Below, in pieces: positions 2,918 to 52,067 of a DNA stretch of 64,000 nt. Both the position numbers and the translations under genes were made by a program. Where the stretch lies: IMG/VR virus record IMGVR_UViG_3300020732_000008, positions 39,933 through 103,932 of that record; one strand, written 5' to 3'. The notes beneath the pieces were generated by a model. It was not told where the DNA came from. It searched no databases and worked only from the letters and a program-made list of their open reading frames with translations. Position 1 is the first letter of the stretch. The number at the start of each line of letters is the position of its first letter. The stretch is from a virus.

Positions 2918-4004
2918 CTGAAGGCTCCTTTAAATAGAAAGCAAGATTTTGTTGAAGACGTACTTCATTTGGTTGCAATTCTACAGCCTTAGTGCCATAT
3001 TTAATGGCTCTTTCTAAGAGAACTTTAGCCTCTTCAAGATCAGATTCAGTGGTAGATAGGTAATAGCAGGATATGGCAGCATAATCCCAAGGCTGTGGTC
3101 CCCACGCCCATGACTCACATAGGAAATCCAAAGGCTTTTCTTCAATAGATAAAGCTAAAGTAGATGCTTCTAGGCATTCTTCCCAACGCTTTTCTTCATA
3201 GTAAAGCTTAGCCAATTCCACATAAGCTTCACGACGTGCAGGGTCTTCTTCTACAGCTGCCTTAAACCACTTGATCATTTCCTCTAAATCTGGGGAAACC
3301 ATATTAGCTATGTAACGCATAGCTGCAGCACGCTCTGGCTTCCATTGAGCATGGGGCATAGATAGGTATCGTTTAAACTCCTCAATTGCTTGAGGATATT
3401 GGGTGTGAAAGAAAAGCTCACGGGCATAGTAGAAAGAACTCCGCTCATCATTGGGAGCTTCTTGAACTGTAAGAGCTAAAAGAGGCAGGTACTGTCCACG
3501 TGATTTAGATGCATCAGCACGGTGGTGTATCTCAAGATCAATATACTCTGCCGTCTCTTCAATGCGGTCTGGGACTAGGATCTCGTGTACGGCATTCTTC
3601 CAACGATACCCATGACGTGTGTGGATGTGATCCCCACCAAAGGTTAATCCCGGGGTACCATCTGGATTAAAGTTCCAAGTGTACTGGTAACGAGGTCGTG
3701 TGACCTTGGTCTTTTCAAGAGCCTTACGCCATCCAGGCATAAGCATCTCATCCATATCGACGGATACACAATAGTCAATGTTGTCTGGAAGTAGGGCTAG
3801 GGCCGCATTACGGGCGTCATCAAACCGCCAAGGCTTAACGCTGATTGTGTGGCACACAATACCAAGGGACTTAGCTAGCTCTACGGTTTTATCTGTAGAT
3901 CCAGTATCAACTATCATAAGATAGTCAGCGTCCTTATTGTGCTGAGCCCAACGAGCTACATGCTGCTCTTCATTAAGGGCAATAGTGTATACAGCTATTT
4001 TCAT
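2901..4004 (-). CDS. Family 2 glycosyltransferase with TPR-like tail
   Basis: 367 residues. The N-terminal 200 are a GT-A fold glycosyltransferase: IALNEEQ near residue 8, VDTGSTDKT near 32 (nucleotide-sugar binding), VDMDEM near 82 (DxD-type metal site) and the late VHEILV and HHRADASKSRGQY segments. Residues 205-360 are helical repeats resembling TPRs (AYVELAKLYYEEKRWEEC). Such enzymes transfer sugars to proteins or lipids. Its position among fibre genes suggests it may decorate virion fibres, possibly the Thr-rich collagen-like ones; this is inference. Host surface modification is an alternative. Confidence 0.85.
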   Translation of the reverse strand: MKIAVYTIALNEEQHVARWAQHNKDADYLMIVDTGSTDKTVELAKSLGIVCHTISVKPWRFDDARNAALALLPDNIDYCVSVDMDEMLMPGWRKALEKTKVTRPRYQYTWNFNPDGTPGLTFGGDHIHTRHGYRWKNAVHEILVPDRIEETAEYIDLEIHHRADASKSRGQYLPLLALTVQEAPNDERSSFYYARELFFHTQYPQAIEEFKRYLSMPHAQWKPERAAAMRYIANMVSPDLEEMIKWFKAAVEEDPARREAYVELAKLYYEEKRWEECLEASTLALSIEEKPLDFLCESWAWGPQPWDYAAISCYYLSTTESDLEEAKVLLERAIKYGTKAVELQPNEVRLQQNLAFYLKEPSVGNSL

Positions 4005-34803: not shown

Positions 34804-34821
34804 CATATCTAAGTGTAGCAG

Positions 34822-34892
34822 CTCCCGAACATGGATTCGAACCACAACTGAGTGCTCCAGAGGCACCTGTACTACCGTTATACGATTCGGGA
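34822..34892 (-). tRNA. tRNA-Gln (CTG)
   Basis: 71 nt fold as a full cloverleaf: acceptor TCCCGAA/TTCGGGA, D-arm GTAT/GTAC, anticodon stem GGTGC/GCACT with loop CTCTGGA (anticodon CTG, T33 present), and T-loop TTCGAAT. Discriminator G; CCA is not encoded. Confidence 0.9.
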
Positions 34893-34914
34893 AGGACCTG
34901 GGGTGATACTCTCG

Positions 34915-34986
34915 CTGGTCATCCTGGAATTGAACCAGGTACCTCCCGATTATAGGTAGGGCGCTCTGCCATTGAGCTAACGACCA
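34915..34986 (-). tRNA. tRNA, apparent anticodon TAT (Ile)
   Basis: 72 nt cloverleaf: acceptor TGGTCGT/ATGACCA, D-arm GCTC/GAGC, T-arm CCTGG/CCAGG with loop TTCAATT. The anticodon stem CCCTA/TCGGG has one mismatch, and the loop CCTATAA places C at position 33, normally T, and TAT at 34-36. It would read AUA codons if functional. Discriminator G; no encoded CCA. Identity less certain than structure. Confidence 0.7.
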
Positions 34987-38502: not shown

Positions 38503-38816
38503 TTTGACATGATGGAAGGCAGATAATTACGACGACTGCCTGTAAAGTGCACAGCCTTTCTATGTTAGTACCCAGTGATATGGCGAATCATAAGATTGCT
38601 GCTAAATACACGCTTTGTTCTTGTAAACGTCCTGTGAATAAAAGTTATGGAGGATCCATAATATAAGGCAACGCATGCCGTATATTCCCGGAGCGACGCA
38701 GTGAGCATGTACTGTTTACAAATATCACGACAAAGCTAAAGGTATGGATAACGTGGTCCTCACGTGCAATATGTCCTCCGTAATTATCTGTCTCCCACTA
38801 TGTCAAATGACATAGT
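38503..38816 (+). ncRNA. Large multi-branched structured RNA
   Basis: Two long-range helices close a 305-nt domain: TTTGACAT (38503-38510)/ATGTCAAA (38800-38807) and CAGATAATTACG (38520-38531)/CGTAATTATCTG (38779-38790). Inside, GCTTTGT and TTGTAAAC (38612-38628) pair with GTTTACAA and ACAAAGC (38714-38736), enclosing TTATGG/CCATAA and ATATA-x-GGC/GCC-x-TATAT hairpins; ACGTG/CACGT forms another arm (38751-38765). The 3' end can instead form the hairpin ACTATGTCA-AA-TGACATAGT (38797-38816) just before a ribosome site. Family unknown; compare with GOLLD/ROOL-type ornate RNAs. Confidence 0.65.
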
Positions 38817-38830
38817 TAAAGGAGGAGAAG

Positions 38831-39403
38831 ATGGCAACGTATCTGCCTAACAGATTAACCATCGATTCTTTTCATCAACAGTATCCAGAACTGGACTCGG
38901 ACAGGCTTATGTACGGCTACGGTTTAAATCTTGGAGATGTAGTCAAATCAAAGCGTCTTAGGTCATTTGAATGGAGACTTATTGCTATTGGTGGCGACGG
39001 TTGGAACCCTAGGGTTTTGATTGAGATGCCAACAACTGGCTATTCTTCTGATACTTCCAACTATTGGTCGTATGGAATGAATGAGCATGGAGAGAATGTA
39101 ATTCGACGGATTATGTTAGCAAAAAATATATACCGGATAACAAAGGAGAACAATATGTGCCAATGTAAATCATCTTATTGCTATTGCGATAGCGATAAGG
39201 TAACTTACGAGATAAATGCCCACGCTGATACGGTTGAAGTAACCAAAGGTCGTAGAACTATTTCATTGACTCTTGGTGAATGCACTGAATTGGCATCATT
39301 CCTAGCAACAGCAAAGACTGAGCTTAAAACAGCTAAGTTGAGCGCTATTGCTGAACAGCAAGCTGCTCTTGATGAGCAGAAGGCAAAGATTGAAGCCCTC
39401 TGA
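38831..39403 (+). CDS. Hypothetical protein, possibly two products
   Basis: 190 residues; AAAGGAGGAG directly precedes the ATG. Residues 1-108 are an aromatic globular part (RLMYGYGLNLGDVVKSKRLRSFEW; GGDGWNPRVLIEMPTTGYSSD). Residues 109-190 start MCQCKSSYCYCDSDK and end in a coiled coil (AIAEQQAALDEQKAKIEAL). An internal AAAGGAGAA ribosome site at 39142-39150 precedes the in-frame ATG at 39155, so an 82-residue second product is likely. Not recognised. Confidence 0.7.
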   Translation: MATYLPNRLTIDSFHQQYPELDSDRLMYGYGLNLGDVVKSKRLRSFEWRLIAIGGDGWNPRVLIEMPTTGYSSDTSNYWSYGMNEHGENVIRRIMLAKNIYRITKENNMCQCKSSYCYCDSDKVTYEINAHADTVEVTKGRRTISLTLGECTELASFLATAKTELKTAKLSAIAEQQAALDEQKAKIEAL

Positions 39404-39522
39404 TGCGTTGGTGTGAAGTATGTGGCGCCATGCCCATGGCTGATGGATACCGATGTGAGAACATACTTGAACAAGAGGTATGTTTTAACTGCTGCAATTG
39501 TGAAGAACATAGACAGAAATAA
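39403..39522 (+). CDS. 39-residue Cys-rich microprotein
   Basis: Starts in a TGATG overlap with the previous stop. MRWCEVCGAMPMADGYRCEN followed by VCFNCCNCEEHRQK gives CxxC, C and CxxCCxxC, a compact zinc-binding layout. Coupled translation is likely; function unknown. Confidence 0.6.
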   Translation: MRWCEVCGAMPMADGYRCENILEQEVCFNCCNCEEHRQK

Positions 39523-39528
39523 TAAATA

Positions 39529-39575
39529 GCGTTGGCCTGGTGGCTATGACTGAGTTCGATTCTCAGCAACGCACG
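39529..39575 (+). ncRNA. tRNA-like mini-element 1
   Basis: 47 nt: acceptor-like stem GCGTTG (39529-39534)/CAACGC (39567-39572), hairpin GCC-TGGT-GGC (39535-39544), then T-arm CTGAG/CTCAG with canonical loop TTCGATT (39555-39561), ending ACG. There is no anticodon arm. GG of the small loop and TTC of the T-loop could form the usual elbow contact. Confidence 0.7.
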
Positions 39576-39729
39576 GGAGGTAGGTAGTTCCTGAAGATGC
39601 CCCATGAAAAAATGAACGAGAAATCGTTATCGTTTTCCAAGTTGGAAGAGCTTGTATCCATGAACTTTATGGAATGAAGATGACCAGTACTGGTTGGTTA
39701 GGTGTTTAAAGCATCACGCCTATCTCCCG
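39574..39729 (+). ncRNA. Stem-closed domain after mini-element 1
   Basis: CGGGAGGTAGG (39574-39584) pairs over 11 positions (one wobble) with CCTATCTCCCG (39719-39729), closing about 134 nt with AACGA-GAAA-TCGTT, TCCAT/ATGGA and CCAGTACTGG hairpins. It ends 6 bases before AAAGGAG of the 39746 gene. Confidence 0.5.
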
Positions 39730-39745
39730 CTAACAAAGGAGAACA

Positions 39746-40366
39746 ATGATCGAAGCTAAATTAGAAGCAGCAACCCATGCTGATTCGAACCTTTACGTTA
39801 CGGTTTTAACCCGAGGTTGGGTAATTAAACGTAACCATTACTATCGTGAGACTCATGAGTGTGCGTTTAAAGTTACAGAAGTTGATGCACGTTTTGAGTT
39901 GAGCGATGCTAATGTGCATATGTATCCCACTAACTTCAGTCTTACTGGGTTTTGGGCTAACAGTACGGGTCGTAAATGGTTTGAGACTGCGGACAGACTG
40001 TACCGCAATGGTGATTGGAGAAGCGAAAATCGACGTGAGGAATTACTAGAGTTCGAGTATTTTCCTCACGAGATACAAGATGTTATCTTCAAGCATCTAA
40101 CTCACTCTGTTAAGGAGCTATCTGAAAGACTGATTAAACTAGATAGCATCTTAACAACCAATAAGAAGTTTGTATCTAAAGGATATGCAGACCTATCAAG
40201 TGAGCCTCAAGAGGGTGACTTGCCATTCCTGCCATCAATTAAACAAACTCGAATCTCTCCCTTACTTAACAATGACGTTAAAAAATGGAAAGTAGCAAGA
40301 GAGGAGCAAGCATGGAAGCCTTCAGTTCTACAAGAATTGGAAGAGCAATTAATCGTAGAAGTTTAA
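39746..40366 (+). CDS. Hypothetical protein behind tRNA-like leader
   Basis: 206 residues, AAAGGAG before ATG. Mixed alpha/beta N-terminal half (YVTVLTRGWVIKRNHYYRE; FELSDANVHMYPTNFSLTGFW) and helical C-terminal half (DVIFKHLTHSVKELSERLIKLDSILTT). I do not recognise it. It is the first gene downstream of a tRNA-like element and overlaps the next gene by 55 bases. Confidence 0.7.
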   Translation: MIEAKLEAATHADSNLYVTVLTRGWVIKRNHYYRETHECAFKVTEVDARFELSDANVHMYPTNFSLTGFWANSTGRKWFETADRLYRNGDWRSENRREELLEFEYFPHEIQDVIFKHLTHSVKELSERLIKLDSILTTNKKFVSKGYADLSSEPQEGDLPFLPSIKQTRISPLLNNDVKKWKVAREEQAWKPSVLQELEEQLIVEV

Positions 40367-40575
40367 TTAAAAACCTACGACATGCATCTAAATACAGTGC
40401 TAGATGGGATGTAAACGATCTAGGCACAGTAGAAATGCAAGACGGATCAATGAAGAAGTTCGTATTCTTCTGGCCGTATGGATGGGACGACAAGATTGCT
40501 ATCCCAGCAAAGAAATTAGATAAAGTTTTAGAGGCAACCTCTATTGATGATATCTATGAGCTAGAAGGGAGGTAA
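40312..40575 (+). CDS. Hypothetical small protein
   Basis: 87 residues from ATG at 40312 (AGAGGAG just upstream), inside the 3' end of the previous gene. Basic helical start (STRIGRAINRRSLIKNLRHASKY), then RWDVNDLGTVEMQDGSMKKFVFFWPYGWDDKIAIPAK, a small beta domain. Not recognised. Confidence 0.65.
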   Translation: MEAFSSTRIGRAINRRSLIKNLRHASKYSARWDVNDLGTVEMQDGSMKKFVFFWPYGWDDKIAIPAKKLDKVLEATSIDDIYELEGR

Positions 40576-40577
40576 TC

Positions 40578-40718
40578 ATGGACATCACTGTGTATCAATG
40601 GTGGCTAAGCATAGTAATTAACGGTTCAATTGAACTACATGTTCAATTAGGCGTTGCTTTTACTGTTGTTGCCACACTTCTTGCGCTTAGATATCGAAAG
40701 AGACTACGTAAGAAATAG
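40578..40718 (+). CDS. 46-residue membrane microprotein
   Basis: GGGAGG lies 5 bases before ATG, 3 bases after the previous stop. A single long hydrophobic helix (HVQLGVAFTVVATLLALRY) is followed by a basic tail RKRLRKK, so the C-terminus should be cytoplasmic. Role unknown. Confidence 0.6.
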   Translation: MDITVYQWWLSIVINGSIELHVQLGVAFTVVATLLALRYRKRLRKK

Positions 40719-40745
40719 ATTTCACCTAGGAGGGTGATAATGGCA

Positions 40746-40820
40746 GCCAACGTTTGGTAACAATACCTTTTCTTCTCCTTTCTCCAGGTATTGATAGGTT
40801 CGATTCCTATTGTTGGCACG
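40746..40820 (+). ncRNA. tRNA-like element 2 with long pyrimidine loop
   Basis: 75 nt: acceptor GCCAAC (40746-40751)/GTTGGC (40812-40817); D-like hairpin GTT-TGGT-AAC; anticodon-position stem AATACC (40762-40767)/GGTATT (40787-40792) with a 19-nt pyrimidine loop instead of 7; T-arm ATAGG/CCTAT with loop TTCGATT; ends ACG. The long loop contains CTCCTTTCT, identical to part of the anti-Shine-Dalgarno tail expected in 16S rRNA. No usable anticodon can be named. Confidence 0.7.
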
Positions 40821-40821
40821 T

Positions 40822-40994
40822 GGGCAGAGACATAATGATGAAGCAAAGATGTAGGGGGCACCATGGGTGCCAAGATCCTACGTTGATGTGAATTCAAAAC
40901 AAGGCAATCTATATGATGAAGGCATACGTTTAGCTTGACTAAGCATGCCGGCTTTTAGCAATCAAGAACCCTGATTAAATTGGCGTCTCTGCCC
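40822..40994 (+). ncRNA. Stem-closed domain after tRNA-like element 2
   Basis: GGGCAGAGAC (40822-40831) pairs with GTCTCTGCCC (40985-40994). Inside are GTAGG-x-GGCACC/GGTGCC-CCTAC, GGCAT-TTAGC..CTAA-ATGCC and AATCA/TGATT hairpins. Lies just upstream of the whiB ribosome site; no gene in 40719-41015. Confidence 0.55.
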
Positions 40995-41015
40995 CATTTA
41001 TAAAAGGAGAATAAA

Positions 41016-41318
41016 ATGGCTAAAGCATTGATGGGAGCACCAACTAAACTGCCACAACAAAATCCAGATAATTGGAAGTGGCAAGATGATGCTGCCTGTA
41101 AGGATGTGGACTACGACCTGTTCTTTTACGAAGACCAAGAGCGTGGTGATAGAAAGCAAGAAAGGATTACAGCGGCTAAGGCGATATGTAATGCATGCCC
41201 AGTCATTAATGAATGCCTATCATGGGCTAATTCAGTTGGTGAGTCACACGGTATCTGGGGCGGTCAAACGCCTGAAGAGCGTGGTTGGAGACTCTCCGGC
41301 TATAAAGGTAAGGATTGA
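41016..41318 (+). CDS. WhiB-family iron-sulfur regulator
   Basis: 100 residues, usual WhiB size. Cys28, Cys58, Cys61 and Cys67 (ACK; AICNACPVINECLSW) are the four 4Fe-4S ligands, and GIWGG near 79-83 is the family turn; WQDDAAC opens the domain. WhiB proteins are limited to actinobacteria and their phages and act by binding the primary sigma factor. Here it may shift host transcription or redox/septation control. AAAAGGAG precedes ATG; transcript leader carries a tRNA-like element. Confidence 0.92.
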   Translation: MAKALMGAPTKLPQQNPDNWKWQDDAACKDVDYDLFFYEDQERGDRKQERITAAKAICNACPVINECLSWANSVGESHGIWGGQTPEERGWRLSGYKGKD

Positions 41319-41716
41319 TTGGTTGATCACCAATCATGTTGGACTTGAGGCGGGAGCTTTGTAAGCGAAAACCTCTCTTCCCAACGCAGTAAATATGATC
41401 GTGTAAAGGCCGCCATTATTATATGGCCCCTACGGTTGAGACTAAGACAGGTTCGCAAGTAACTAGGTCTGCATATTGAGGCCACATTAATCTATAAAAC
41501 ACATTTGAATGATATCTATTAAGATGTGTAAACGATGCGTGGATATACATATTACGCTACGAAAACTACTGCTCGATCTAATATACCGTGTGTTCTAGAG
41601 CACCTCGATGGGGATTCTAGGTAATCCGGTGGGCGACACGCCCATACAACCAAAGAAAGCAAGTTACTACATGTCTGTGCATCGGTGTGGTAACTTGCTT
41701 TCTTCTTTTAAAAAGG
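41317..41716 (+). ncRNA. Structured noncoding region before 41725 gene
   Basis: GATTGGT/ACCAATC hairpin right at the whiB stop (41317-41335); nested GTTGG-GAGG-GCTT..AAGC-CCTC-CCAAC (about 41338-41378); CCAT/ATGG; GCGT-ATAT/ATAT-ACGC (about 41536-41558); GGATT/AATCC and TGGGCG/CGCCCA; finally AAGAAAGCAAGTTAC pairs over 15 bp with GTAACTTGCTTTCTT, ending at the ribosome site. No coding frame is supported here. Confidence 0.5.
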
Positions 41717-41724
41717 AGAAGACT

Positions 41725-41901
41725 ATGGATGAAGAAGACATCGACGCATTGTGTGAAGTTGCTAATGTGATTCTTGATCAAGCAATGGAAGACGATGTTC
41801 TTTTAAACTTATTCAATGGCAAATGGTCAAAGAATAAGATTGTTGGCTTTGAGATAAATGCATTGGCAAGACATCACCTTATTGACTTTAGAGAAGAATA
41901 A
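41725..41901 (+). CDS. Small acidic protein
   Basis: 58 residues from ATG at 41725, with AAAAAGGAG upstream. Mostly helical and acidic (DEEDIDALCEVANVILDQAMEDDVLLNLF), then KIVGFEINALARHHL. Unknown family; sits between two structured RNA regions. Confidence 0.65.
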   Translation: MDEEDIDALCEVANVILDQAMEDDVLLNLFNGKWSKNKIVGFEINALARHHLIDFREE

Positions 41902-41907
41902 GGTGTA

Positions 41908-41950
41908 GCGTGACCGGCTGACTTCAAGGTTCAAGTCCTTGACACGCACG
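41908..41950 (+). ncRNA. tRNA-like mini-element 3
   Basis: 43 nt: GCGTG (41908-41912)/CACGC (41943-41947), T-arm CAAGG/CCTTG with canonical loop TTCAAGT (41930-41936), ending ACG. The linker (ACCGGCTGACTT) keeps GG but forms no clear stem. A GAGT-CAACACC/GGTGTTG-ACTC hairpin (41951-41979) follows at once. Confidence 0.6.
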
Positions 41951-42001
41951 GAGTTACAACACCACAAGGGTGTTGACTCTAAGAGAAAAGGAAGGCAAAC
42001 A

Positions 42002-43378
42002 ATGAATACAGCGGTGTTTGTAGAAACATACGAACCAACCATGGGAGAAGACAAGCGTCAGATCCTCATGGTCCCAATCAATGATGGTGAACTCCGTGTT
42101 TTCACCCGTATGACTGATGGACAGAAAGGCTTGTCTAATAAGTGGAACGAGGTAGACACAGTAACCCTCAATGATATGGAACGTATTACGAATAAGCCAG
42201 TAGGCATTCGCATCACAGATAATGATCGTGCTGACCTCAATGACAAGGGATATTCCCCTGTTCTTGCAGTCAAAGCAGTCAACGCTAACAATCGCTCAAC
42301 ACCTTACGGTGACCATGAGTACGATGTTACATCTGTTATCGGAGAGCTTATGGCGCACGTTCGTGCACAAGACAGTGTGGTCGAGTCAATGGTAATTGAT
42401 AACCGCATGAAGTCTGACACACCGCCGTTCATGATTCAGCAAGACGCTGTTCCAACACAAACATCGGCGCCTGCTACTGATGACCGTGAAATGGTCCTCT
42501 CTTTAGCCTCGATTCCACCATTGGAACTAGCCTCCAAGTACATTAATCGCACAATCTTCGGTCTCAAAGACTTCGATGTCTTTGATCGTTGCCGTGCGTA
42601 CAATGAGGATGCACTTATCTATGGCCCAACCGGTCCTGGTAAGACAACCGCAGTTATTGCTTGGGCTGCTGAACGACGCCTTCGTCTAGCGCAGGTATCT
42701 GGCAATGCTGCATTGGAGCCAAGCCAACTCATCGGTAAGTATATTCCCGATGGCAATGGCAACTTCGTGTGGATTGACGGTCCAGTGACTGACGTCGTGC
42801 GTAACGGTGGAGTTCTTATTCTTGATGAAGTTAACTTTATCAGTCCTAAGATCTATACAGTCTTGTACTCCCTACTTGACAGCCGTCGTGCTCTTATCTT
42901 GCTTGACCACAAGGGTGAAGTTATCGAAGCCCATCGTGATCTAACAATCTTTGCGACAATGAACCCATCTTACATTGGCACAGTGCCATTGAACTTTGCG
43001 TTCCGTAATCGCTTCGGTGTTCAGATTGCTTGGGACTATGACGATAAGGTCGAGGCTAAGCTCATTAAGAATGAAGCTATCCTCGTGCTTATCCGTCAGT
43101 TGCGTAATGAAGCAGCTCGTGGTGAGATTGAAACACCTATCTCAACCAACATGGCAATGGAACTAGAACGTTTCATGACTCAGTTTAACTACGAGTTTGC
43201 CATTGAGAACTTCATTGCTCACTTTGACCTTGAGGAGCAGGAAAAGATCCGCCTCGTATTCCAAACTCATGAAGCTAATCTTCGTGAGAGCTTCGAGAAC
43301 CTAGTTCCTGAAGTTGTGGAAAAGGAAGCGGATGTAGTATCGGAAGCTGAGAAGTTTCTACAGTCTCAATCCAATTAA
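42002..43378 (+). CDS. AAA+ ATPase, MoxR/CobS-like
   Basis: 458 residues from ATG at 42002 (GGAAGG upstream). An N-terminal 170-residue region of unknown fold precedes the ATPase: IYGPTGPGKTT near 207-216 (Walker A), VLILDEVNF near 271-279 (Walker B), then FATMNPSYIGT (sensor 1) and NFAFRNRFGVQI (arginine finger region). Followed 10 bases later by a VWA-domain gene, the classic MoxR/CobS-VWA pairing. Annotated phage relatives are often called CobS (cobaltochelatase), but a chelatase role is not shown; protein remodelling is equally possible. Confidence 0.88.
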   Translation: MNTAVFVETYEPTMGEDKRQILMVPINDGELRVFTRMTDGQKGLSNKWNEVDTVTLNDMERITNKPVGIRITDNDRADLNDKGYSPVLAVKAVNANNRSTPYGDHEYDVTSVIGELMAHVRAQDSVVESMVIDNRMKSDTPPFMIQQDAVPTQTSAPATDDREMVLSLASIPPLELASKYINRTIFGLKDFDVFDRCRAYNEDALIYGPTGPGKTTAVIAWAAERRLRLAQVSGNAALEPSQLIGKYIPDGNGNFVWIDGPVTDVVRNGGVLILDEVNFISPKIYTVLYSLLDSRRALILLDHKGEVIEAHRDLTIFATMNPSYIGTVPLNFAFRNRFGVQIAWDYDDKVEAKLIKNEAILVLIRQLRNEAARGEIETPISTNMAMELERFMTQFNYEFAIENFIAHFDLEEQEKIRLVFQTHEANLRESFENLVPEVVEKEADVVSEAEKFLQSQSN

Positions 43379-43388
43379 GGAGTAAGAC

Positions 43389-45392
43389 ATGGGATACAAA
43401 GACAAAATAGATACAGACTATCGTGGTAAGGCTCGCACTGCAAAGGAGCAGTTGCGAGCTTTGCGTCTTGGTGCAATCGCAAGAGTGTATCAAGGTGCCG
43501 ATCGTATCCTTACTGGTGATCCTGTCGTTGTGAATGTAGTGGATGATGGTCCTGCCCCAGCGTGGTCAGATGGCGCATCCATTACACTCAACGCAGCCAT
43601 GATTAAGGATCTTGATCTTGAGACTATTGCACAAATCAATGGCCTCAACTATCACGAGCTCTCGCACCACCTCTACACTCCAAGAAAAGGTACACCATTG
43701 GTGCAGTGGATAATCGAAAAAGGTTATTTCCAAGCATTCAATGTGCTTGAGGACCAGCGTATCGACAGTCTGTTGTGCGCTCGTTACCCAAGCATCATGC
43801 CTTATCTAACTGCAACAGTCCTGCGTTGGCTAGCTGAATCAGAGAAGGAAGCATCCATGGCATACATTACATGCCGTGGTCGTCGCTATCTTCCTGTTGA
43901 ACTACGCCAGCAGTTCAGAGATATGTTCTATAAACCAGAACTAATCCCTGCAATCTGTCGCATCGTCGATGAGTATCGTACGCTTGCATTCCCTAGGGAT
44001 TACATTCGTGCTCAAGAACTCGTCGAAGAGTTCCATAACGAAGTTATGGAGAAGTTAGATGCCCCATCATCTGGTGGTCCATCTCAATGTGGTCACCGTG
44101 TGCCGATAGCTAAGGGTCGTCCTGAGCCTGGAAAGATTCAGGAACGTGACGCCAAGCGTGCAGGTAACATGGGTGATCTTGAGGATGACCTAACTGATGA
44201 AGAGATCAAAGCCATGGTTAAAGCCATGGAAGACGCTATGGCTGAAGAGGATGTCATGTCCCAAGGTGACGGTAACGTTACTGATGAGGAAGAACAACTA
44301 GCCGATGCTGAACCTGAAGATGGAGGTACACCTGAAGATGGAGGTACACCTGAAGGTAGTACTGAAGCAGGACAACAACCATCTGGTGCTGACCAAATCA
44401 AAAACCGTCAGCGTAGAGTAGCTAACTCAACGCCGAAAGTTGGTAAGGGTCACATTGAAAGTGATGGTGGTTTGCCTGATGACATCAGCACAACAATTCA
44501 AAACGCCCTCAATGATATCTATGGTCGCAAAGATGTGATCATGGATGTTAAGCGCAAGCAACGCATCATCATTAACGGTGGTGTGGACGATAGTTATGAG
44601 GAGACGGGTGTACACGGTAAGTTTGATGAAACCGATGTACCACAGTCAGAAATCATTACCTATCGTAAGTTTGCCAAGGAACTGCAACGTCTTCGTGACG
44701 ATGCTGAGCCTATGTGGGAGAAGGAAATGCCGTCAGGCCGCCTCAATGTACAGCGAGTAATTCGTGGTTGTGAGATTGAGACTGCGTTTGATCGGTGGAC
44801 AGAGCAGGACGACAGCTGCGATATTGAAGCTGTCATCTGTATAGATCGCTCTGGTTCTATGACCTCTAACCGTAATGATGAGCGTGCGTCTCTAGCCTCA
44901 TGGGTTATCAAGCGTGCCTTAGAAAGTATCGGTGCCCCCGTTACTGTCTACGCATTCGATGATAAGACAGAGGTTGCCTATGCTCGTAATGATGAGGCTA
45001 AGCCTACCAAGTTCAAGTTCATCTTTGGTAATGGTGGCACTGATCCATACGAGTCTCTTGTTATGGCTGAGAAGGTGTTAATGGCATCACAGAAGAAAAA
45101 TAAGATGCTGTTCATCATCACCGATGGTGTCTTCAACACAAACAAAAATGACGACGTCATCAAGCGCATGTCACAACGTGGCATCTTAACGTCAATGGTA
45201 CTCATCATGCGTACCAATGAGTATGAGAATGCCATGACTTCTAACAAGCAAGCGATTGCTGAAGGTAGTACACCTCGTTGGGAGTTCAAACATGAGGCTG
45301 AAATCTTCGGTCAAGTAGATAGTGGTAAAGATCTACTCAACCTAGCTAAGACAATCGTTGTCGGAGCTATCAAGAAGCGATCAAGGAGATAA
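43389..45392 (+). CDS. VWA-domain protein with HExxH region, CobT-like
   Basis: 667 residues. N-terminal part has NYHELSHHLYT (HExxH, residues 89-93) and NVLEDQRIDS near 119, as in metallopeptidase-like domains of VWA partners. A very acidic linker (about 250-345) contains the direct repeat PEDGG-TPEDGG-TPEG. The C-terminal VWA domain has a MIDAS motif ICIDRSGSMTS near 486, then TDGVF and a Thr/Asp-bearing segment. Works with the preceding AAA+ protein as substrate-recognising partner. Metal protease activity is possible but untested. Confidence 0.85.
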   Translation: MGYKDKIDTDYRGKARTAKEQLRALRLGAIARVYQGADRILTGDPVVVNVVDDGPAPAWSDGASITLNAAMIKDLDLETIAQINGLNYHELSHHLYTPRKGTPLVQWIIEKGYFQAFNVLEDQRIDSLLCARYPSIMPYLTATVLRWLAESEKEASMAYITCRGRRYLPVELRQQFRDMFYKPELIPAICRIVDEYRTLAFPRDYIRAQELVEEFHNEVMEKLDAPSSGGPSQCGHRVPIAKGRPEPGKIQERDAKRAGNMGDLEDDLTDEEIKAMVKAMEDAMAEEDVMSQGDGNVTDEEEQLADAEPEDGGTPEDGGTPEGSTEAGQQPSGADQIKNRQRRVANSTPKVGKGHIESDGGLPDDISTTIQNALNDIYGRKDVIMDVKRKQRIIINGGVDDSYEETGVHGKFDETDVPQSEIITYRKFAKELQRLRDDAEPMWEKEMPSGRLNVQRVIRGCEIETAFDRWTEQDDSCDIEAVICIDRSGSMTSNRNDERASLASWVIKRALESIGAPVTVYAFDDKTEVAYARNDEAKPTKFKFIFGNGGTDPYESLVMAEKVLMASQKKNKMLFIITDGVFNTNKNDDVIKRMSQRGILTSMVLIMRTNEYENAMTSNKQAIAEGSTPRWEFKHEAEIFGQVDSGKDLLNLAKTIVVGAIKKRSRR

Positions 45393-45393
45393 C

Positions 45394-46173
45394 ATGGCTA
45401 GAAAGGCAACTAACTATCGTTACGAGAGGCCTGAGAATCGTAGATGGTATTGTCGTTTTTATACATGGGAACAAGCAGTAGATTATTTGAGCACAGGCCG
45501 CAACAAAAATTTGCGGCCTATGTATCACATGAGCCTACATGTTCGTCGTATAGAACCTGACAATCCAGACTCATCGATAGGTATTGGTTACTACAATTCC
45601 TGGTCTTTAAGAAACGGTATAACACTGGATCAGCTCGATGTCGTTATCTATCACAAAAACGGCACGGCTACGGTCACCAACAACACCTATTGGTCATCTG
45701 CTAGAAATGTAGCTCTTGCGTATGCCAACCTTGTTGCATATTCAAAACGACAAGGCGTACTAAAGTTACGACAAGATACAGATTTACCCAAGAAAGCATA
45801 CACCAGACCATGTGGTACATGTATGGGCATGAAAACCCATATGTATAGATCCTTTGGTACTGGAGAGGTAGTTACCGAGAAATGTCCAGACTGTATCGAT
45901 GGGTACAAACGCACTAAAGAGGGTTGGTTTGCAACCTCTATCCCCAATATCAATAGGCTAATTAGAATGTACTCTGGCAATACTACGTACATTAACTTTA
46001 TGCCAGCATCATTTGATATTGATATATCAACCGGCAGGTTGATAAGTGTGGAAGAAGGTGGTCGAGTTGAGATAACAGACTACCGAGAAGACCACCATAA
46101 AGCTGAGTCCAATACATGGGCTGAGATGGCTAAACGAGTTAAGGAAGGAGTTATAGATGTACGTGATCTTTGA
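45394..46173 (+). CDS. Hypothetical protein with CxxC zinc motif
   Basis: 259 residues from ATG at 45394 (AAGGAG upstream), directly after the VWA gene. WYCRFYTWEQAVDYLSTGRN, then YHMSLHVRRIEPD and IGIGYYNSW; central CGTCMGMKTHMYRSFGTGEVVTEKCPDC is a CxxC...CxxC ribbon as in DnaJ-like or phage zinc proteins. Function unknown; position suggests linkage to the AAA+/VWA pair. Confidence 0.7.
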   Translation: MARKATNYRYERPENRRWYCRFYTWEQAVDYLSTGRNKNLRPMYHMSLHVRRIEPDNPDSSIGIGYYNSWSLRNGITLDQLDVVIYHKNGTATVTNNTYWSSARNVALAYANLVAYSKRQGVLKLRQDTDLPKKAYTRPCGTCMGMKTHMYRSFGTGEVVTEKCPDCIDGYKRTKEGWFATSIPNINRLIRMYSGNTTYINFMPASFDIDISTGRLISVEEGGRVEITDYREDHHKAESNTWAEMAKRVKEGVIDVRDL

Positions 46174-46351
46174 TGTGACTACAAACACATTGGTAGGTCC
46201 TTTTGATACTGAGGAATCAGCAGTAGGTTTCAAGGTAGAAGCCGAAGCTGAACTTGATGACTCTAACCAGTCATTAGACATCTATCAGTTGACAGAACCT
46301 ACTGAATGGATGTTAGATAACTTCAGTACGTCAGTGGTTGAGCTAGTGTAG
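46157..46351 (+). CDS. Small hypothetical protein
   Basis: 64 residues. YVIFDVTTNTLVGPFDTEESAVGFKVEAEAEL resembles small phage proteins with a beta-hairpin then helix ('...V.GPF.T...A..W...'). Acidic overall. Overlaps the previous gene by 17 bases; the AAGGAGTT ribosome site is inside it. Confidence 0.65.
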   Translation: MYVIFDVTTNTLVGPFDTEESAVGFKVEAEAELDDSNQSLDIYQLTEPTEWMLDNFSTSVVELV

Positions 46352-46370
46352 CCCAACACAAACATTGACA

Positions 46371-46418
46371 GCGCTGGCCTGGTGGCCATAGCATAGGTTC
46401 GATTCCTAGCAGCGCACG
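46371..46418 (+). ncRNA. tRNA-like mini-element 4
   Basis: 48 nt: GCGCTG (46371-46376)/CAGCGC (46410-46415), hairpin GCC-TGGT-GGC (46377-46386), T-arm TAGG/CCTA with loop TTCGATT (46398-46404), ending ACG. Closely parallels mini-element 1. An 8-bp hairpin TTCTTCAG/CTGAAGAA (46419-46442) follows immediately, then a ribosome site. Confidence 0.7.
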
Positions 46419-46455
46419 TTCTTCAGCGTCGACACTGAAGAATAGAAAGGCAGAC

Positions 46456-46656
46456 ATGTCACAAACTGAATATCTCACAGTCGAGATTACGTATCGGGTC
46501 CACATAGACCAGGATAGATGTCCGGATTTACTTACAAATCCGTACACCTTAGCCATGGGCGTTTGGGATGAACCTACTAAGTCTTACAAACTGCACGAGA
46601 GTCTAAATGACGATGAGTACATCATGCTTACTGGTATAGATGTAATTGCCAAATAA
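46456..46656 (+). CDS. Small hypothetical protein
   Basis: 66 residues, AAAGG before ATG. Beta-rich (TEYLTVEITYRVHIDQDRC; TLAMGVWDEPTKSYKLHESL) and acidic. Unknown family; first gene after mini-element 4. Confidence 0.6.
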   Translation: MSQTEYLTVEITYRVHIDQDRCPDLLTNPYTLAMGVWDEPTKSYKLHESLNDDEYIMLTGIDVIAK

Positions 46657-46661
46657 TAGAT

Positions 46662-46690
46662 CCCCCTTATCCCACGTGCGGATAGGGGGG
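46662..46690 (+). repeat. Strong GC hairpin between small genes
   Basis: CCCCCTTATCC (46662-46672) pairs over 11 positions with GGATAGGGGGG (46680-46690), loop CACGTGC. No T-run follows; may slow decay or block polymerase. Confidence 0.6.
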
Positions 46691-46722
46691 CATCTTATGT
46701 CGCTAACAACAAGGAGAAGAAA

Positions 46723-46908
46723 ATGGACGAATTAGGACAACTAATCAACAGTCTCATTGAGCGTCGTCAAGAGCACTATGAGAGTCTGCTGAATATCAAT
46801 ACATCGAGTGATATGCAGGACTATCTTGAGGGTTGCATTGAAACCCTTGATCTGGTCATTGGTCAGATGCAGCTAATAGAAATCAATAGCGATGCATTGT
46901 CTTCATAA
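46723..46908 (+). CDS. Small helical protein
   Basis: 61 residues, AAGGAG upstream. Two helices (QLINSLIERRQEHYESLLNI; YLEGCIETLDLVIGQMQLIE) suggest a helical hairpin. Overlaps the next start by 17 bases. Unknown role. Confidence 0.6.
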   Translation: MDELGQLINSLIERRQEHYESLLNINTSSDMQDYLEGCIETLDLVIGQMQLIEINSDALSS

Positions 46909-47437
46909 CGTAGCTGTAGAAGCCGAGAGTAAGGAAGAGGCCTTTAAAAAGGTACAGCGCTTCCTATTAGAAGAAAACAATGCACCTTGGTCTGATTGGC
47001 ATGTTGTAGGTGGTGGACGTTGGAGCAACTCCCATTATGAGGATAGCTCTGAAAACGTGCTAGGCTACAAGGACGCTGACTTTAAGAAGTCATTCCAAGA
47101 TAGTTTGACAAATCGTTTAAACGAGTTAGAAAGGATCATGAAGGATATACAACCTCAAAAGATTCTTATTAACGGTAAAAGCTATTTGTCAAAGATGAAG
47201 AAGATAGCTCAATCTCAAGCTCCTTGGGTACCAATGGATCCAAGCGCTAGCCCATTCGTATTTGATAGGCTAATGTGGAGACTAGAGCAAATGAGCAAGA
47301 TCCTCAACAATGAGTGGACATCTGACAGCTATTTCTATGATATAGAAACCTGGACAGCTGACGCATCATCATTCTTAGATCGAGTATCTAAGAACCCAGA
47401 TAAACAATGGTTAGTTCCTGTGGACTTTCACTGCTAA
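46892..47437 (+). CDS. Hypothetical conserved-looking phage protein
   Basis: 181 residues. HNVAVEAESKEEAFKKVQRFL, then WSDWHVVGGGRWS, ILINGKSYL and a Trp-rich C-terminus. The 'V.A.S.EEA...V..FL...N..WSDWHVVGGGRW' opening is one I associate with proteins found in several actinophage-like genomes, without a known function. Confidence 0.65.
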   Translation: MHCLHNVAVEAESKEEAFKKVQRFLLEENNAPWSDWHVVGGGRWSNSHYEDSSENVLGYKDADFKKSFQDSLTNRLNELERIMKDIQPQKILINGKSYLSKMKKIAQSQAPWVPMDPSASPFVFDRLMWRLEQMSKILNNEWTSDSYFYDIETWTADASSFLDRVSKNPDKQWLVPVDFHC

Positions 47438-50603: not shown

Positions 50604-52067
50604 TTAAAGATCTAATCCCTCTTGGATTATCTTAGTGGTTTGATCCTCATCAAGTCCACCGTTAGGAAGCTCCCTGAGGGTGTTAGCTTTATCACCAAAG
50701 AGGGCGGACATTACACCGCCGGAGGTTTGACGCTCTACTGTCATGCGTACGAACTCCTTATTCTCTTCAAGTTCCTTCATCTTAGCAACAACTTTAAAGA
50801 GTCTGTCAATCTCTTTTGATGTGTTAGGATCCGGATAACCACCGTTCAATTCTTCGGTAAAACGTGCAAAAGCCACTCTTTGGCCCTGCATTTCGATAAC
50901 TGCGTTCAATAAACCCTTAAGTTGGTCTTTAGTCTTGACCTCAATTGGGATATTAAATGAGCAGCTGTTATCAGGTTTAAATGCTGGGCAATTGCCCGAT
51001 ACAAAGCAGGTATTGCATTGACGCAAGGAGTTGGAATTGCTTCCAATGACGTTAACATCCTTTATAACATCGTTGCCAAAGTCATCTTTTTCAATAATCT
51101 TCTTGGAAGATACCGAGAAAACGGGCAGATTTACGACCTCATTTGAGTCACGTACGGTTAAATTATTCCGCACTTGAGTAGGCCTGTTATCAACTTCTCT
51201 ACCCTCTGTTTCCGAGTATCCCGGGTCATCTATACCACCACTGTTATCAGCTAACTTCAACTGTTCTCTCCTTGTTAGGTGTTCTTCCAGCTTCAGATAG
51301 GAATAGATGGCGAGCTTTGTTACCTCGTTGGCATCATCAGCCATTATCTTGTCAAAGTCTAATCCGGCCTGTTCAACGACGCCCTTATAACGTGGGCGGG
51401 CCTCATCCTTCATCTTTGCCTGATAACGCACAAGCTTGGTTCCATCCCAAACCACAGTTTCTCCACGCATCATCGGTGAGACCCAAGCAAGGCTGCTGGC
51501 GGTCTGTACAGGGACGTTACGGAGGTTGGAAGGGTTGGCACACGCAATGCCATGAAAAGTGGTCCCATGAGCGCTCTGAAGGCTTCTTACACGGGCAGCT
51601 AGAGTTACGTCCTGATCGATTGTGCGTCCCAAGATCCCCACGTGTGGGTACTTCTGGGCAAGCTTCATAAGCTCTGGGTAGCCCTTATGCCAGATAGGGA
51701 GAAAGCGGTCAACCCCGAACTCTTCCCAGAAGAGCTCTCGTTGTTTATCCACAAACTCAGGGTCAATGACATCCAATTCTGATGCCATAAAAATATTAGA
51801 TTCGTTTAATGCGACCCAGTCCTGGTAGTCAGCGGCGTAATCCTCTAGATCCAGGGCAGATAGCTTTGCTTCACGTGCCTGGGTTCCGCCCCCGTCCACG
51901 AATACACGGACGTCGTCAGGGTACTTCTCCTCTAAAAGGTAGTCCTTAGTTACCGGCAAGCCCCGCTTAGCTAGGCGCCAGTAATTTACACCAATATTCT
52001 TGACACCAGCTTCTATAAGAATATTCCTATGGCTGGGGACTTCTCCCCCAAGAAATACGATCTCCAA
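50604..52067 (-). CDS. TGT/DpdA-like TIM-barrel protein with Cys-rich C-terminus
   Basis: 487 residues. Residues 1-230 follow the layout of tRNA-guanine transglycosylase paralogues: VFVDGGGTQARE, NIFMASELDVIDPEFVDKQRELF, FLPIWHKGYPELMKLAQKYPHVGILG, FHGIACANPSNLRNVPVQTASSLAW. The catalytic-looking 'VDS' stretch of DpdA is replaced by TASS. The C-terminal half has CNTCFVSGNCPAFKPDNSC (four Cys) and a helical end. May act in base exchange or have lost catalysis; no deazaguanine synthesis genes are seen here. Confidence 0.55.
   Translation of the reverse strand: MEIVFLGGEVPSHRNILIEAGVKNIGVNYWRLAKRGLPVTKDYLLEEKYPDDVRVFVDGGGTQAREAKLSALDLEDYAADYQDWVALNESNIFMASELDVIDPEFVDKQRELFWEEFGVDRFLPIWHKGYPELMKLAQKYPHVGILGRTIDQDVTLAARVRSLQSAHGTTFHGIACANPSNLRNVPVQTASSLAWVSPMMRGETVVWDGTKLVRYQAKMKDEARPRYKGVVEQAGLDFDKIMADDANEVTKLAIYSYLKLEEHLTRREQLKLADNSGGIDDPGYSETEGREVDNRPTQVRNNLTVRDSNEVVNLPVFSVSSKKIIEKDDFGNDVIKDVNVIGSNSNSLRQCNTCFVSGNCPAFKPDNSCSFNIPIEVKTKDQLKGLLNAVIEMQGQRVAFARFTEELNGGYPDPNTSKEIDRLFKVVAKMKELEENKEFVRMTVERQTSGGVMSALFGDKANTLRELPNGGLDEDQTTKIIQEGLDL

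Follow-up and report, generated by a model that had tools for sequence, protein, structure and literature searches.

The window analyzed here, a 64-kb stretch of DNA (positions 39933-103932 of the 103.9-kb viral record IMGVR_UViG_3300020732_000008), carries four truncated tRNA-like elements, E1 to E4. We consider it likely that these belong to a widespread class of phage t-elements, that is, host-processed punctuation signals that split operon mRNA. Their structures, their placement, and a tRNA-like purine-73 and C74 recur as a module in the order stop codon, 11- to 12-bp tRNA-like minihelix, purine-73 plus C74, nearby stem, ribosome site, and start codon, and the elements are under selection for structure. 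They occur well beyond the window phage, and an earlier note on this DNA, which had pointed out the four, underestimated their scope.

All four elements lie on the plus strand in noncoding gaps within one co-directional gene run (Table 1). They are present where the earlier note had placed them, and each is recovered by a mechanical descriptor that asks for a 7-nt TTCRANY loop, a T-stem of 4 bp or more, and an acceptor of 5 bp or more. Applied to both strands of the 64 kb, the descriptor returns E1 to E4, two true tRNAs, and one weak match; at a score cut of 11.5, there are exactly six matches (the four elements and the two tRNAs) versus a mean of 0.35 and a maximum of 3 in 60 dinucleotide shuffles. 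The common 3′ ACG that had been described ends all four window elements and none of the shuffled matches. Stacked acceptor and T-stems measure 11 bp in E1 and E3, 12 bp in E2, and about 11 bp with one mismatch in E4, and the other elements inspected have 11 to 12 bp, near the 12 bp of tRNA. E2 is built of a 7-bp acceptor, a D-loop-like segment (TTTGGTAA), a T-arm, and ACG, with an extra arm of 7 bp and a 19-nt pyrimidine loop (40768-40786). E3 has a 5-bp acceptor, a 6-bp T-stem, D-loop nucleotides without a D-stem (ACCGGCTGA), and A73-C74-G. Some details of the earlier description change: an acceptor-like stem of 5 to 6 bp holds for E1 (6 bp) and E3 (5 bp) and is exceeded in E2, the hairpin GCC-TGGT-GGC occurs in E1 and E4 only rather than in three elements, and the next stem begins 1 to 4 nt past base 73 rather than within 0 to 1 base. 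The distance from the stop codon to the element is 6 nt for E1, 27 nt for E2, 6 nt for E3, and 19 nt for E4. RNA folding reproduces the proposed structures of E1, E3, and E4. For E2, the acceptor forms and the drawn arms are missing from the minimum-energy fold, and its inner arms therefore rest on comparison, not on energy. E3 by itself has ordinary stability (fold z = -0.6), and so its case, too, rests on comparison.

Standard annotation recognizes none of the four. ARAGORN and Rfam (4227 models, gathering threshold) report only the two true tRNAs, at 34821-34986, both with G-C at bases 73-74; no tRNA model matches in 38800-47200 even at E ≤ 10, and E1 to E4, unseen by ARAGORN and by Rfam RF00005, do not belong to the canonical tRNAs. 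Neither program reports a tmRNA, no tag reading frame is reported, and no RNA homology of the elements to tmRNA or other Rfam families was found. Rfam Plastid-ycf2 matches on the minus strand of E2 and E4 lie under the curated cutoff and reflect antisense tRNA-like sequence.

Using the AAA ATPase next to E3 as a query, we obtained 25 viral loci at 52 to 70% identity, of which L003 is the closest. E3 orthologues stand directly 5′ of the ATPase gene in L003, L004, L005, and L014, and two pairs of their T-stem show two-sided change, a compensatory count that is weak alone (5 sequences; two changed pairs were reached in 63 of 500 shuffles). Just past E3, the same four loci have a hairpin at the same place but of different sequence. 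They also carry E2 orthologues upstream of whiB, whose acceptors are unrelated in sequence yet paired (GCCAACG/TGTTGGC, GTGCATAG/CTATGCAC, GCCTGTG/CACAGGC). An E1 orthologue is present in L003 at 3294-3339, and the equivalent position in L003, L004, and L014 yielded no E4 counterpart. The gene that follows E1 in the window is preceded in L004, L005, and L014 by a full tRNA-Met with GCGCTG...CAGCGC-ACG ends (in L004, with one further gene between), and these E1-like acceptor ends make a tRNA origin of E1 plausible. A further element is common to one locus of the more distant genomes G008 and G009 (GCTGAC/GTCAGC versus GCCGAC/GTCGGC). At L181 and L182, a homologous element of G008/G009 is enclosed by an outer stem, CTTACGG...CCGTAAG, which lengthens the acceptor. 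WhiB failed as bait for further loci.

Covariation was assessed in two larger sets of elements. An initial pattern scan was loose and returned mostly chance matches but still led to G018, L071, L120, and Lactobacillus phages, and a G018 protein used as a query led in turn to cluster A mycobacteriophages, in which two elements stand in tandem in the leader of the rightmost gene. For the second of these in 12 syntenic phages (brought into register by hand, any pair missing from a 6-bp acceptor being written as N), 100% of acceptor and T-stem cells are paired, 8 of 12 pairs show two-sided change, and covariation is 0.699 versus 0.160 when shuffled and at most 0.155 when slid. The first element keeps its pairing through complete sequence changes. 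At L151 to L162, the T-loop of the upstream cluster A element is altered (TTTGATT) and its GCATNTGTGC segment is nearly invariant, with the second element within a few bases. A covariance model of cluster A leader elements plus one metagenomic element (R1), trained without any window sequence and run on the window with filters off, ranks E4 first (E = 7.5e-5) and E1 second (E = 0.011).

The other set is the compact E3 type, defined by the motif acceptor, A-N-Y-G-G-N-A (tRNA D-loop nucleotides, no D-stem), T-arm, acceptor. Our search of IMG/VR fixed the D-loop and T-loop nucleotides only. Loop nucleotides in the matches therefore prove nothing, since the motif requires them; acceptor and outer T-stem pairs are hardly constrained by it, and so pairing there is a close to unbiased test. 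Many phages in the set are related, and the counts are thus not independent. Among the matches listed, to which the later counts of 165 and 135 also refer, 170 of 172 distinct sequences form a T-stem of 4 bp or longer, and in 166 an acceptor of 5 bp or longer pairs where it is expected (10 of 172 with the 3′ strand displaced 10 nt). Outer pairs interchange GC, CG, AT, and TA. In eleven E3-type elements, a set selected partly by pairing, 99.2% of cells are paired, 8 of 11 pairs show two-sided change, and covariation is 0.729 versus 0.171 when shuffled. The corresponding covariance model (R3), built from eleven elements of the Streptomyces-phage type and contig L207 and again trained on no window sequence, finds E3 as its sole significant match in the window (E = 1.6e-10), detects E3 orthologues in G001, G002, G003, and G011 and none in other relatives, and finds 7 to 10 elements per record in L207 and in records of the Streptomyces-phage type (e.g., Endor2). 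The earlier suggestion of selection for structure is borne out by compensatory change in both sets and by models that recover E3, E4, and E1; the search for covarying homologues that it called for found them.

Phage records similar to the Endor2 region number 115, all of them Streptomyces. A tRNA-Arg annotated in Endor2 (MT711979, 44378-44460; L329) overlaps one truncated element and is probably a misannotation of it. The Sitrop record lists a tRNA-Arg in the region matching Endor2. Across bacterial and archaeal genomes totaling 257 billion bases, the E3-type motif has only 75 matches, 15 of them paired; the E3-type element is mainly a phage feature, and the few copies in bacterial or metagenome-assembled records may be prophages. 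A Gemmatimonadota metagenome-assembled genome (CP070815) has four E3-type elements (one at L365, three at L376) with A-C-G and following stems, possibly in a prophage.

Viral contigs with series of elements include G018, L071, L120, G020, and Lactobacillus phages such as phiPYB5. Proteins of L071 and L120 have no close counterpart in an isolate. G018 has 11 matches (10 on the minus strand) versus 0.35 in shuffles, most of them 7 to 17 nt past a stop codon, and phiPYB5 (L203) has, within a gap of 536 nt, a hairpin and a tandem run of three tRNA-like elements. At L203, L040, L052, L061, L073, L124, and L132, the third tandem element bears a long arm whose CAAAATTTACA loop is conserved. The elements of G020 (L190-L192), a variant form, are followed by GCCCA-NN-TGGGC hairpins and do not keep the R73-C74 rule.

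Placement is regular. In the listed stretch of Endor2, all 8 gaps of at least 81 nt hold one element and gaps of 76 nt or less hold none; seven of the elements lie 7 to 16 nt from the upstream stop codon. Among the 165 E3-type elements, the upstream open frame ends at most 30 nt away or inside the element in 151, and in 35 the element's own TGA is the upstream stop codon; in this roughly one-fifth, processing could be coupled to translation termination. Base 73 is a purine in 163 of these elements and base 74 is C in 162. Neither is needed for folding; in tRNA, the RCC end is contacted by bacterial RNase P RNA, and purine-73 and C74 are part of this contact. A stem begins at +1 to +5 past base 73 in 125 of 135 distinct downstream sequences (median z = -1.4, with 57 at p ≤ 0.05 versus about 7 expected), and in G018 it begins at +4 in most elements.

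The window elements have the properties of t-elements: an acceptor/T-arm without decoding capacity, located between co-directional, presumably cotranscribed genes. An acceptor/T-arm minihelix is the minimal substrate of RNase P, and RNase Z cuts T-arm/acceptor structures past base 73. There is also precedent: in Haloferax, RNase P and tRNase Z cleave t-elements, and in plant mitochondria such elements set the ends of mRNAs (PMC4326828, PMC8003010). On these two grounds we propose processing. A phage t-element would consist of an acceptor/T-arm minihelix, with or without a D-like segment and with no normal anticodon arm, between a stop codon and the next leader. Host RNase P would cut its 5′ side, and RNase Z or an equivalent tRNA 3′ nuclease would cut past base 73, with the 3′ cut the minimum expected and the 5′ cut a further possibility. 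The upstream message would obtain a trimmed or tRNA-capped 3′ end; the downstream message would acquire a new 5′ end a few bases from a stable stem (in most genomes studied) that would shield its 5′ monophosphate, and the operon would be divided into separately stable, translatable units. Of the three roles suggested in the earlier note, that of an RNase P/Z signal fits best, with cleavage, the enzymes responsible, and the effect on stability all inferred. The suggested mRNA 5′ cap survives in altered form, as the stem after the element, which would cap the downstream mRNA once cut. Nothing specific supports a decoy, and elements lying between co-directional genes are a poor fit for that role. 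For phages at large, we lean toward a picture in which many actinobacteriophages, and some Lactobacillus and other phages, have their polycistronic mRNAs split where host tRNA-maturation enzymes cut genome-encoded miniature tRNAs, giving each gene its own protected mRNA ends.

A published transcript offers a comparison. From Pleft (transcription start site at 51,672), mycobacteriophage L5 produces an RNA of about 500 nt that is stable and very abundant; it has its 3′ boundary at 51,140-51,190 and is processed to smaller species (PMC5712189, passages on this RNA). This boundary converts to +482 to +532 from the start site, and in the related phages D29 and SWU1 base 73 of the leader element lies at about +522 and +537, respectively, counted from a start site predicted on -35/-10 boxes; the L5 boundary is consistent with element processing. 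The same passages do not mention a tRNA-like fold.

Several observations weigh against processed t-elements. The L5 comparison is carried over from D29 and SWU1, and the authors of PMC5712189, in those passages, read the boundary as termination. An RNase P cut just past the stop codon would leave the upstream mRNA 3′ end unprotected unless cutting is mainly on the 3′ side. Distribution is patchy: Gordonia Bendigovirus homologues of the AAA/VWA gene pair have no elements in the regions scanned, and the element is without a match in most of the more distant MoxR relatives. Some elements of Lactobacillus phages and G020 depart from R-C at 73-74. Finally, six cluster A leaders tested have no significant downstream stem, and this stem is thus not universal.

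We weighed four other explanations. The elements could be folded insulators that are never cut, acting as a barrier to 3′-to-5′ exonucleases or run-on ribosomes while the hairpin isolates the next ribosome site. Placement right after the stop codon and a hairpin before the ribosome site fit this equally well, but an insulator needs no T-loop sequence, D-loop nucleotides, purine-73, or C74, all of which are kept across unrelated stems, and we regard it as unlikely. Excised elements might instead work in trans as decoys for RNase P, tRNA-modifying enzymes, elongation factor, or tRNA-targeting defense, as their multiple copies per genome in some phages and their intact tRNA elbow and acceptor end would allow. 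The L5 leader region is toxic to the host according to the passages of PMC5712189 on it, which would also suit a decoy, although this toxicity was mapped to a region and not to the element. A decoy has no need to sit 6 to 15 nt past each stop codon, and the pattern of single coding-strand copies, one in each gene gap and next to a stem and a ribosome site, points to a role in cis; a trans function is quite improbable.

The termination interpretation of the L5 boundary would also suit elements that serve as terminators or antitermination sites rather than in processing. We find this very improbable: the stems inspected have no following T-run, our window scan for intrinsic terminators (stem plus T-run) gave no terminator-like site at E1 to E4, and many terminators in series within one operon would silence the distal genes. 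Functionless remnants of decaying tRNA genes or integration sites would account for the full tRNA-Met of L004, L005, and L014, which lies upstream of the syntenic gene and has matching acceptor ends, and tRNA fragments are common at phage attachment sites. Compensatory changes, arrays of differing sequence within one genome, and conserved spacing to stop codon and stem speak against decay, both acceptor strands are kept, and covariation already contradicts this explanation, which is barely credible. As attachment-site tRNA fragments the elements were rejected in particular because both acceptor strands are kept, they stand serially between genes, and their window neighbors are WhiB, AAA ATPase, and VWA genes, not an integrase.

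Among known systems, we group the elements by mode of action with t-elements, and they are probably phage t-elements. Those known from plant mitochondria and, upstream of 5S rRNA, from Haloferax volcanii are likewise nondecoding tRNA-like structures between cotranscribed genes. They are organellar or archaeal, with demonstrated cutting, whereas the phage elements belong to bacterial DNA phages and their cutting is proposed; the phage elements also differ in forming arrays of up to about ten per operon, in their conserved R73-C74, and usually in an adjacent stem. In animal mitochondrial transcripts, functional tRNAs separate coding genes and define mRNA ends. The phage elements separate genes in the same way but lack an anticodon arm and therefore cannot decode. 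Host RNase P generates the ends of some stable phage RNAs, among them the C4 antisense RNA of P1/P7, the CI RNA of P4, and the M3 RNA of phi80; these are single regulatory RNAs of enterobacterial phages, unlike the repeated, intergenic elements described here. The tRNA-like domain of tmRNA and viral 3′ tRNA-like structures share the acceptor/T-arm with a reduced or missing anticodon arm, but the phage elements are not at a genome 3′ end and have no Rfam match at the gathering threshold. The SAS and ESAS of cluster K mycobacteriophages are repeated structured sequences just 5′ of start codons whose function is unknown (PMC3203893). ESAS, which lies next to SAS in TM4, consists of 17-bp inverted repeats without a tRNA-like core, unlike the phage elements. 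The TM4 genome has no R2 or R3 match, and the descriptor picks up nothing comparable in the first 50 kb of it, so that ESAS as the same element is unsupported. We found no prior description of such elements in the open-access papers searched, among them work on Streptomyces phages of this group; subscription papers and preprints were outside this scope, and priority is therefore not established.

If phage t-elements are processed as proposed, an mRNA processing mode of mitochondria and archaea would operate in bacteria during phage infection and tie the expression of phage genes to the host's RNase P and RNase Z. This mode would explain differentially stable messages from long phage operons and provide a candidate cause of the unexplained abundant Pleft RNA in mycobacteriophages L5 and D29. 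The elements would also add an RNA family for which no Rfam entry was found, one member of which is apparently annotated as tRNA-Arg in Endor2, and such compact processing signals could serve operon building in actinobacteria.

Table 1. Elements, leaders, and genes in the E1-E4 region (window coordinates)
Feature	Position	Strand	Basis
Small open reading frame (ORF), ends 6 nt 5′ of E1	39403..39522	+	70% identity to ORF upstream of L003 E1
E1, truncated tRNA-like element	39529..39575	+	Descriptor, R1 match, L003 orthologue
E1 acceptor	39529-39534/39567-39572		
E1 D-like hairpin, GCC-TGGT-GGC	39535-39544		
E1 T-arm, loop TTCGATT	39550-39566		
E1 A73-C74-G	39573-39575		
Leader domain after E1	39574..39729	+	12-bp long-range closing stem, begins 1 nt past A73
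E2, tRNA-like element	40746..40820	+	Descriptor, orthologues upstream of whiB
Structured whiB leader after E2	40820..40995	+	Closing stem CAGAGAC...GTCTCTG, conserved ATAATGA adjoining
WhiB-family gene downstream of E2	41016..41318	+	Pfam Whib E = 2.4e-21
E3, compact-type truncated tRNA-like element	41908..41950	+	R3 match, orthologues in relatives
Hairpin after E3, 5′ end of predicted downstream mRNA	41951..41979	+	z = -2.8 and -3.7
AAA ATPase (MoxR-like) gene downstream of E3	42002..43378	+	Pfam AAA_5 E = 2.1e-19
VWA/CobT-like gene, AAA ATPase partner	43389..45392	+	Pfam VWA_2 E = 1.1e-5, slightly under curated cutoff
E4, truncated tRNA-like element (TGGT hairpin, T-arm, ACG)	46371..46418	+	R1 match
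Hairpin after E4, then ribosome site, ATG 46456	46418..46443	+	Folding
Small gene of unknown function downstream of E4	46456..46656	+	Gene call

The leaders that follow the window elements are of two kinds. After E1 and E2 they are long, with 172 and 197 nt, respectively, from base 73 to ATG, and both are closed by a long-range stem. The E1 leader domain has a fold z of -3.4 (0 of 200 shuffles equally stable) and the whiB leader one of -4.25. E3 and E4 have short downstream hairpins instead. The MoxR-like gene stands directly 3′ of E3, no tRNA-like element lies at the junction between it and the VWA/CobT-like gene in the window, and the latter has homologues in Gordonia phages. On inspection, the whiB leaders of the window, L003, L004, L005, and L014 are structured and 180 to 400 nt long, with a conserved CAGAGAC-ATAATGA and a compensatory closing stem; this leader could be a separate riboregulator.

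Some smaller features accompany E2. A mini-ORF (MAANVW, 40740-40760) with a strong ribosome site overlaps its acceptor and is not conserved in L004-type relatives; as a translational switch, it was set aside, being weakly matched in L003. The loop at 40768-40786 is complementary to the phage ribosome-site consensus AAAGGAGAA. Such pairing was rejected as a general function, as L004-type E2 orthologues have no complementary loop. Farther downstream, window positions 41319-41700 are a long noncoding region with several stems, including a long hairpin (AAGAAAGCAAGTTACTAC...GTGGTAACTTGCTTTCTT) directly 5′ of the next ribosome site.

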